Source of the DNA: Owenweeksia hongkongensis DSM 17368
GTDB taxonomy: Bacteria; Bacteroidota; Bacteroidia; Flavobacteriales; Schleiferiaceae
Direction of reading: 5' to 3'
Length of the DNA: 64,000 nucleotides
Assembly (NCBI RefSeq): GCF_000236705.1
Contig: NC_016599.1
Location: 2,480,001 to 2,544,000, forward strand
A model generated the notes under the pieces. That model ran no database searches and was not told the DNA's origin. It saw only the letters and a list, made by a program, of their open reading frames with translations. Positions 29,713-31,495 of this stretch are shown in pieces (the stretch's first letter is position 1; each line of letters starts with the position of its first letter). Position numbers and translations under genes: made by a program.

Positions 29713-29830
29713 TATTTTAGCTTTTGCCAAAATTTTAAAATAGCCTATCATCCTATTTTAAGAAACTAAAATAAAACTAGTTTTATTTTAGTTTTTGCTA
29801 GGTTTCTAAAATAAGGATTACCTTTGTTTT
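29713..29830. repeat. Upstream block of TATTTTAG/CTAAAATA boxes with a 32-bp palindrome
   Basis: Copies of the 8-mer lie at 29713-29720 (TATTTTAG), 29766-29773 (CTAAAATA), 29784-29791 (TATTTTAG) and 29806-29813 (CTAAAATA), with a variant at 29754-29762. Positions 29763-29794 are a perfect 32-bp palindrome whose left arm is AAACTAAAATAAAACT. The last box lies between the -33 and -7 elements of the fic promoter, as an operator would. A matching block follows the gene. Confidence 0.8.
29794..29826 (+). promoter_or_regulatory. Promoter of the fic gene
   Basis: TTTG (29794-29797), a 21-bp spacer, TACCTTTG (29819-29826; perfect TAnnTTTG), then the ATG 25 nt further on. A CTAAAATA box (29806-29813) sits within the spacer. 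Confidence 0.7.
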
Positions 29831-29851
29831 AGATATTAAACATATTCTAAA

Positions 29852-30982
29852 ATGAAAACTTTTGAATCAGGACAAATAATTTCACAGGGCCATTATAAAA
29901 GCTTTGAACCAAACCCAATAAACCGGCAATGGCTGATTGATGACCCAGAGATACAAAGCTTACTGAGCCAAGCCGACAGACAGCTTGGACGGCTGGACAT
30001 GTTTTCGGAATATGCTCCAAATATTGACCTTTTTATAAGTATGCATGTAGTAAAAGAAGCTACCAAAAGCAGCAAAATAGAAGGCACACAAACTAATATG
30101 GAAGAAGCACTGCTAGAAGAAAAAGATGTACCAGTCGAAAAGAAGGACGATTGGGAAGAAGTTCAAAACTACATCCGCGCTATGAACTATGCCGTGGAAC
30201 ATTTGCAGGAGCTGCCCTTTTCTACACGGCTTATCCGTGAGACCCATGGTGTACTGCTACAAGGGGTGCGTGGCAAAACTAAGCAGCCAGGTCAGTTTCG
30301 CACCAGCCAAAACTGGATAGGGGGCGCTGCCATAAGTGATGCCGCTTTTGTGCCTCCCGTATTTACCAGTGTTCCCACATTGATGGGAGATTTGGAAAAA
30401 TTTGCCCACAATACAGATGTTTATGTACCAGACCTTATCAAGATTGCCATCATTCATTATCAGTTTGAAACCATCCACCCTTTCCTGGATGGTAACGGAC
30501 GAATTGGACGATTGCTCATACCCTTCTTTTTGGTGAGCCGTGATATTCTTAAAAAGCCCATCCTTTATATGTCGGACTTTTTGGAAAAAAACCGCCAATT
30601 GTATTATGACAACCTAATGCGCACCCGCACACACCACGACATCAGGCAGTGGCTAAAATTCTTTTTGACAGGGCTTATAGAAACAGCCAAAAATGGGGTA
30701 AACACCTTTAATGCCATTTTACAACTTAAAAATGAGACCGAAGAAAAAGTGACCCAAAAACTTGGTGCAAGGGCACACAATGCGCAAAAACTCTTAAACC
30801 ACCTGTATGCCCGCCCCATTATAAGTGCGAGTCATGTGGCCCAGGCCACAAACCTCAGCATGGCTTCTGCCTACAAACTTATACATGACCTTGAGGAGCT
30901 TGGAATTTTAAAAGAGCTGACTGGAGAAAAAAGAGGCAGACTTTACAGCTTTGAAAGCTATTTAAACCTTTATCAGCGATGA
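29852..30982 (+). CDS. Fic family protein (AMPylator-type) with C-terminal winged helix
   Basis: Fic enzymes usually transfer AMP to target proteins. The motif HPFLDGNGRIGR (209-220) has the catalytic His and the anion-binding Asn-Gly-Arg. An autoinhibitory motif of the [S/T]xxxE[G/N] class is present N-terminally (Ser73, Glu77, Gly78 in SSKIEG), placing it in class II. Residues ~315-365 form a winged-helix DNA-binding region (ISASHVAQATNLSMASAYKL), so autoregulation through flanking boxes is conceivable. There is no antitoxin gene beside it, as expected for an intramolecularly inhibited Fic. It stands alone between the two repeat blocks. Confidence 0.92.
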   Translation: MKTFESGQIISQGHYKSFEPNPINRQWLIDDPEIQSLLSQADRQLGRLDMFSEYAPNIDLFISMHVVKEATKSSKIEGTQTNMEEALLEEKDVPVEKKDDWEEVQNYIRAMNYAVEHLQELPFSTRLIRETHGVLLQGVRGKTKQPGQFRTSQNWIGGAAISDAAFVPPVFTSVPTLMGDLEKFAHNTDVYVPDLIKIAIIHYQFETIHPFLDGNGRIGRLLIPFFLVSRDILKKPILYMSDFLEKNRQLYYDNLMRTRTHHDIRQWLKFFLTGLIETAKNGVNTFNAILQLKNETEEKVTQKLGARAHNAQKLLNHLYARPIISASHVAQATNLSMASAYKLIHDLEELGILKELTGEKRGRLYSFESYLNLYQR

Positions 30983-31018
30983 AAAAAATAGCTACTTGTT
31001 TTAGGTTTTGTTGAAATT

Positions 31019-31076
31019 CTAAAATAGGGTGTCTCCTTATTTTAGAAAACTAAAATAGCATTTAGCCCTATTTTAG
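31019..31076. repeat. Downstream block of CTAAAATA/TATTTTAG boxes
   Basis: Four copies in nested inverted order: CTAAAATA (31019-31026), TATTTTAG (31038-31045), CTAAAATA (31050-31057) and TATTTTAG (31069-31076). The outer pair extends to CTAAAATAGGG/CCCTATTTTAG. The inner pair forms TATTTTAG-AAAA-CTAAAATA. Confidence 0.8.
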
Positions 31077-31237
31077 ATTTTATAGGATTTATGAAATAAG
31101 GATAGGGTTTTTGTCCATTCACTTCCTTTAAGGGAAGCATCAATGTAAGGGTTGTATTTACTTAACTCAAAGAATATTTCAAGCGAATCTCTCTCTACTT
31201 ACTTTGCTCGCTCGGAGCCGAGCCACCATATGAAGCA

Positions 31238-31495
31238 CTAACGCATGGATGGAGGAGTTTCATCCTTTGAGAGGGCAAAACGCCCTACTAGCCCAATAAT
31301 TAACATTGCCCAGGGGCTGCCGTGCAACAGTAAATCAAACCAGTCATACCAAACCATACCAACTGCTCCATTGGCTACCCATTTTAATTTTTCCCATACA
31401 TGGGGTTCAGGGGCGAACGGTGCCAACCCAAGAGTAAGGCAAACCAGCGCTATCATTGTCAGATTTTTAGAAGAAAACTTGAGTAGTTTTTTCAT
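31238..31495 (-). CDS. Small two-helix membrane protein, 85 aa
   Basis: I chose the ATG at 31495 (MKKLLKFSSKNLTMIALVCL) rather than the longer frame because it places the first helix at the N-terminus. A first hydrophobic segment (MIALVCLTLGLAPFAPEPHV) and a second one (LHGSPWAMLIIGLVGRFAL) flank the conserved-looking WVANGAVGMVWYDWFDLL. Proteins like this are common in Bacteroidota and are sometimes labelled RND transporter, which the length makes implausible. Function is unknown. Confidence 0.7.
   Translation of the reverse strand: MKKLLKFSSKNLTMIALVCLTLGLAPFAPEPHVWEKLKWVANGAVGMVWYDWFDLLLHGSPWAMLIIGLVGRFALSKDETPPSMR

Follow-up and report, generated by a model that had tools for sequence, protein, structure and literature searches.

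A putative self-operator array at a SoFic-like fic gene of Owenweeksia hongkongensis and its covariation with one residue of the predicted recognition helix

Class II Fic proteins form the largest Fic group, and their control is little understood (PMC9755527). Kinch et al. 2009 suggested that an HTH fused to a Fic domain may regulate expression of the fic gene (PMC2686095), and CccR, a Fic-HTH protein of Yersinia pseudotuberculosis, represses itself through two inverted 10-bp repeats (PMC9755527). CbFic2 of Coxiella burnetii joins a Fic enzyme to a winged HTH, and its (de)AMPylation activity is influenced by DNA binding (PMC10628234). SoFic of Shewanella oneidensis is known from the structures 3eqx and 3zcn, and a SoFic anti-phage system has been described (PMC12249575); DNA binding by SoFic had not been shown, according to PMC10628234. 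Restriction-modification units are known to duplicate about 100 bp of target DNA when they insert (PMC3874152).

The gene studied here lies in a stretch of 64,000 nucleotides from Owenweeksia hongkongensis DSM 17368, the whole of which was analysed and is called the window. The gene and the helix predicted to read DNA are placed as follows.

29852..30982, + strand: fic gene, 376 amino acids, with Fic_N at residues 37-116, the Fic domain at 122-227 and a C-terminal winged helix at 326-366
30860..30898, + strand: recognition helix of the winged helix, residues 337-349, from the AlphaFold model and covariation

In Pfam the Fic domain scores 64.1 bits against a curated cut-off of 24, and Fic_N 97.1 against 26.7. 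The motif HPFLDGNGR is intact, its residues being invariant or nearly so among 30 sequences. N-terminal to it, SSKIEG at residues 73-78 has the [S/T]xxxE[G/N] form that defines the class II type of inhibitory motif, and S73, E77 and G78 are invariant among 30 sequences. The C-terminal winged helix proposed in the preliminary description is predicted in the AlphaFold model, with helices at 326-333 and 337-349 plus wing strands; the second of these, the recognition helix, has a mean pLDDT of 86.8, and residue 338 is its second residue. The Pfam HTH_13 match is weak and falls below its cut-off. The closest solved fold is SoFic 3zcn (TM 0.78), with which domain order is also shared, and the PADLOC SoFic model matches almost the full length of the protein (residues 12-374, 406 bits, E 3.7e-122). 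The two proteins differ in that identity is only ~26%, the NCBIfam SoFic equivalog scores 157.4 bits against a cut-off of 550, and no antitoxin-like small gene was noticed beside the Owenweeksia gene. From its sequence and model, the protein is predicted to be a SoFic-like Fic AMP-transferase of class II type that inhibits itself and ends in a winged helix, and it is probably an anti-phage toxin, its assignment to the SoFic system being by sequence. A phage origin was considered and rejected, as phage matches were limited to four distant ones at ~31% identity. The Owenweeksia genome holds a second Fic_N gene (L178, G000:C1:568416-569354), ~29% identical, at which no comparable box array is visible.

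Short alternating boxes precede the fic gene and extend over its start codon.

29713..29854, unstranded: upstream array of 8 half-sites, putative operators, with spacings 22-19-12-18-22-19-22, spanning the promoter and the start codon
29713..29720, + strand: half-site TATTTTAG, exact copy
29735..29742, - strand: half-site TTAAAATA, imperfect
29754..29761, + strand: half-site TATTTTAA, imperfect
29763..29794, unstranded: perfect 32-bp palindrome containing the divergent half-sites 29766-29773 and 29784-29791
29794..29797, + strand: -33-like element TTTG
29806..29813, - strand: half-site CTAAAATA, exact copy, between the -33 and -7 elements
29819..29826, + strand: -7-like element TACCTTTG, immediately 3' of the half-site, a placement common to most relatives that have the element
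29825..29832, + strand: half-site TGTTTTAG, imperfect, overlapping the -7 element
29847..29854, - strand: half-site CTAAAATG, imperfect, overlapping the ATG

The -33 element was called from the Bacteroidota promoter consensus. The half-sites start at 29713, 29735, 29754, 29766, 29784, 29806, 29825 and 29847 in strict alternation, and a pair of them spans ~41 bp, near four helical turns. The preliminary description had counted eight exact copies of TATTTTAG/CTAAAATA, four on each side of fic, and all are in place: 29713 (+), 29766 (-), 29784 (+) and 29806 (-) upstream, 31019 (-), 31038 (+), 31050 (-) and 31069 (+) downstream. The perfect palindrome that it reported is also there, with two 16-nt arms that are 100% complementary and no loop, and so is the box that it placed between the promoter elements, which sits between TTTG and TACCTTTG.

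This layout resembles that of CccR, which likewise combines a Fic domain with a C-terminal HTH and has inverted repeats in its own promoter near the -35 and -10 boxes. CccR is a dimer that represses this promoter, and repression by the Owenweeksia protein is predicted. The two differ in that CccR has a single pair of 10-bp repeats, 26 bp apart, while the Owenweeksia gene has 8 half-sites with a ~41-bp period and is also followed by a second array; CccR is moreover a secreted effector. CbFic2 shares the combination of Fic enzyme and winged HTH, but its DNA binding may be non-specific, whereas the Owenweeksia protein has a specific, predicted array. Self-repression by Fic-HTH proteins is already known; the multi-site array, the predicted one-residue code across phyla described below, and the second and orphan arrays are undescribed in the literature searched.

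The array stands well above background. The single 8-mer occurs 13 times in the window against 5.3 expected, a count reached in 0 of 100 shuffles, and the 5 copies outside the fic locus amount to background. The pair CTAAAATA-N7..12-TATTTTAG has 3 copies in the 4,000,057 bases of the genome, all at the fic locus, and its reversed control has 0 copies in the same bases; elsewhere, the inverted box pair with a 12-bp spacer gave chance matches only. In a test of half-site spacing, both blocks exceeded all 60 dinucleotide shuffles (upstream 38 against a mean of 8.3, downstream 27 against 5.9). On the 8-mer shuffles, the uniqueness of the pair and the spacing test, AT-rich background is rejected as the source of the array. 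The refuting condition of the preliminary description, a box no commoner than background, gets a divided answer: it applies to the single 8-mer, with its 5 copies elsewhere in the window, and fails for the paired array, which is confined to the fic locus in the 4.0-Mb genome (3 of 3 copies).

A second array follows the gene.

30997..31098, unstranded: downstream array of 6 half-sites, direct copy of 29713-29813
31099..31159, unstranded: continuation of the downstream copy, which together with the array matches contiguously the single-array site of a same-genus genome (G001), 74% over 166 bp

Its half-sites start at 30997, 31019, 31038, 31050, 31069 and 31091. The two blocks had been described as mirrored, but they align locally as direct repeats, with 73% identity over 109 bp, and the downstream block copies the first six upstream half-sites (spacings 22-19-12-18-22 upstream and 22-19-12-19-22 downstream). 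They appear mirrored because the half-site spacing is nearly palindromic. The alignment identifies the downstream block as a duplicate of the upstream array that has diverged from it. Between the two, boxes are identical at 43 of 48 positions and spacers at 34 of 56 (p 0.0008), a contrast that is indicative because the boxes were chosen by eye. The downstream array lies between convergent gene ends, with no gene placed for regulation behind it.

We compared the locus with 80 relatives at about 54-70% identity, from Bacteroidota and several other phyla. A phylum-wide search later contributed 29 further loci, of which one is broken and a few are duplicates, and another 20 came from more distant relatives. 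Rows of alternating half-sites precede most relative fic genes, with box spellings that include TATTTTAG, TATTTAAG, TATTGCAA, TTATTTTAC, GCGAATATA and others; in several relatives the upstream array is weak or absent. By the spacing test, 78 of 104 loci exceed all 60 dinucleotide shuffles upstream, and 8 of 103 do so downstream. The element TANNTTTG occurs within 70 bp upstream of fic in 47 of 81 loci, against 5.5 expected, in many cases directly after a half-site, and the operator row therefore overlies the promoter. Array-like sequence is found only downstream in L126 and, by eye, also in L134, L140-L142, L144 and L164. In L123 the fic relative is broken by one in-frame stop, and the array is still there.

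The box spelling follows the protein. For 82 loci, an array consensus was derived from spacing alone, without protein data, and each box position was tested for covariation with each variable protein column, 3048 pairs in all. The top pair is box base 3 with residue 338 (corrected MI 0.931, z 18.3), followed by box base 3 with residue 342 (0.432) and the next base with residue 338 (0.345); both residues fall within the predicted recognition helix. When the boxes were sorted into coarse classes instead, column 338 came out best of 373 (0.952 vs 0.332). Alanine at 338, the residue of the Owenweeksia protein, goes with CTAAAA, proline or valine with CTTAA, lysine with GTAAA, arginine with TTGCAA or GTATAA, and serine with TGC[AG]A. 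In a tree built from the Fic part only, the box switched at least 10 times and residue 338 changed at least 11 times; among 6 independent pairs that differ in box, residue 338 agrees in 5 and opposes in 0 (p 0.06 for this test alone). Loci added after the rule had been formulated mostly follow it: lysine with GTAAA in L143, L159, L161, L165 and L168-L173, serine with TGC[AG]A in L139, L158 and L167 (besides the earlier L076 and L080), and proline or valine with TTAA in L116, L118-L120, L124 and L128.

The code has exceptions in L166 (lysine with CTAAAATA) and L074 (proline with CTAAAAA), and lysine also occurs with an unrelated box in L079, L081, L084 and L129. Together with the two boxes of arginine, these cases indicate that neighbouring residues matter too. 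Two k-mer tests were weak: shared upstream 7-mers, as a class-free test, gave no signal at column 338, their top columns being driven by composition, and shared inverted 6- or 7-mers ranked column 338 12th of 190 and 8th of 180. The weakness arises because AT content confounds these tests, proline and valine share one box, and distant clades differ throughout; they were superseded by the base-level consensus in the spacing-defined frame. On the covariation evidence, Ala338 is the predicted specificity residue of the recognition helix. A large Fic family would thereby gain a predicted operator for most of its members and a simple residue-to-base code, making binding specificity predictable from sequence and testable by a one-residue swap (A338P, A338V, A338K and A338S against the boxes CTAAAATA, CTTAAATA, GTAAAATA and TGCAAATA). 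The repeated switches of box and residue also provide an unusual natural series for the joint change of a repressor and its operator.

Two genomes of the same genus bear on the history of the locus. G001 (92% complete in 340 contigs, contiguous at the fic site) has no matching Fic and carries a single array at the corresponding site, with all six half-sites identical to those of the upstream block. The site is flanked by orthologues of the Owenweeksia neighbours, a lipoprotein gene on the left and a 104-aa and a YciI-like gene on the right. Between the upstream array and this orphan array, boxes are identical at 48 of 48 positions and spacers at 48 of 55 (p 0.014, with the boxes picked by eye). 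The upstream array differs from the G001 array by <10% and from the downstream array by 27%. If rates were equal, this greater closeness to the G001 array than to its own downstream copy would date the array duplication before the species split and make G001 the genome from which fic disappeared, for which recombination between two array copies is the simplest route. The search for empty sites that had been proposed thus found one array without fic, with a divergence pattern that favours loss over a site never occupied. G002 lacks both the left neighbour and the array at the site, and therefore does not tell gain from loss.

From these patterns we infer that, very probably, the Fic protein itself uses the boxes as its operators, as the preliminary description had proposed. 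The proposal is strongly supported by the covariation of box and recognition helix over 82 loci, by the conserved layout of array over promoter and by the restriction of the paired pattern to the fic locus within the genome. Fic copies would bind the alternating half-sites cooperatively, about two per 41 bp and roughly on one helix face, the winged helix reading the third base of CT[X]AAATA mainly via residue 338. Bound protein would cover both promoter elements as well as the start codon and so repress fic, which would keep the amount of a potentially toxic enzyme small; loss of binding or titration of the protein would raise expression. The downstream array, which still has good boxes, may serve as an auxiliary or decoy site, and homologous recombination between the direct copies could delete fic and leave one orphan array, as in G001. 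As a whole, this combination of a self-repressing array, reading by residue 338, a downstream duplicate and recombinational loss is highly likely. The role of the downstream array is unexplained by repression, which counts against it.

Least probable among the alternatives, to the point of being very hard to sustain, is that the boxes are AT-rich background or sites of a host regulator unrelated to Fic: this would suit the single 8-mer at its background frequency outside the locus, but in 4 Mb the pair is found only at fic, box spelling varies with the Fic recognition helix, and fic genes of unrelated hosts have arrays as well. The second idea of the preliminary description, in which the boxes delimit a mobile single-gene cassette, is partly supported. 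Here the arrays would be a long direct target duplication made by a move or insertion, for which restriction-modification genes with duplications of ~100 bp give a precedent (PMC3874152); those units resemble the fic unit in being conflict-type genes with long, variable direct repeats and no transposase of their own, and differ in that the repeat at the Owenweeksia fic is the putative operator array itself. The single-array site of G001 speaks for mobility, as does an excess of significant direct repeats flanking fic within 1.5 kb, seen in 13 of 75 loci (4 of 104 among control genes of comparable size, Fisher p 0.004) and in 5 of 23 further loci. Inverted repeats show no such excess (5 of 75 against 5 of 104, and 0 of the 23). 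Several of the direct repeats look like long target duplications, since they copy the 3' end of lepA in L027, the terminal part of a convergent gene in L054, a gene end of 138 bp in L163 or, in L031 and L118, the 3' part of a tRNA repeated across the fic unit as at mobile-element integration sites. Direct array copies on both sides recur in L069, L076, L135, L158 and L173, fic is spread patchily over phyla, and more distant copies lie on plasmids. Transposon inverted terminal repeats with a short target duplication are rejected, the blocks being direct copies; fic is the sole gene between the arrays, and no transposase or recombinase was seen there or adjoining the unit. Repeat lengths run from 26 to >300 bp with inconstant ends, mixed-assembly contigs may contain artefacts, few relatives have two-sided arrays, and no clean empty site was found outside the genus (relatives of L118 have a single tRNA copy, with a differing other side). 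The array divergence, which suggests a duplication before the species split and a loss in G001, weighs further against the cassette, and we consider it rather unlikely. In broader terms, that fic was gained or lost by recombination, or is mobile, is plausible. More speculative still is the wider proposal that such fic genes are free-standing mobile units with their own array, entering genomes by long direct duplications in which the array may be included, the pairing shifting by one residue and one base and the array serving both as operator and as the sequence for loss and regain.

Two other readings concern the downstream array. It may be a functional auxiliary operator, looping to the promoter array, or a decoy that titrates the protein; this is conceivable though somewhat doubtful. 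Boxes are better conserved than spacers both between the two arrays and against the orphan array, and downstream arrays recur in L126, L135, L158, L164 and L173, but the half-sites were partly chosen for matching, which inflates the contrast, most relatives have no downstream array, and the orphan array would be without a ligand in a fic-less genome. The array could instead be the dead relic of a tandem array-fic duplication whose second fic was lost. L029:4659-7550, where two near-identical fic genes stand in tandem, each with its own array, shows such an arrangement, and the promoter end behind the downstream array has decayed. Against a relic, inspection by eye shows no trace of a fic gene behind that array, and its boxes stayed better conserved than its spacers; we consider this reading improbable. 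The operator reading with a duplicated array accommodates the orphan site, and orphan array and flanking duplications together offer a way to trace how a conflict gene is gained and lost.

The surroundings of fic gave further observations. Type I restriction-modification operons adjoin or enclose fic in L011, L020, L045, L079, L081, L126, L129 and L143, a context judged by eye from translations, with an hsdS-like end upstream and an hsdM- or hsdR-like start downstream. At the right edge of the Owenweeksia locus, a short imperfect repeat GAAGCA..GGATGG (31129-31150 and 31229-31250) surrounds a ~79-bp stretch that is absent from the same-genus genome and appears to be a further small insertion or duplication.
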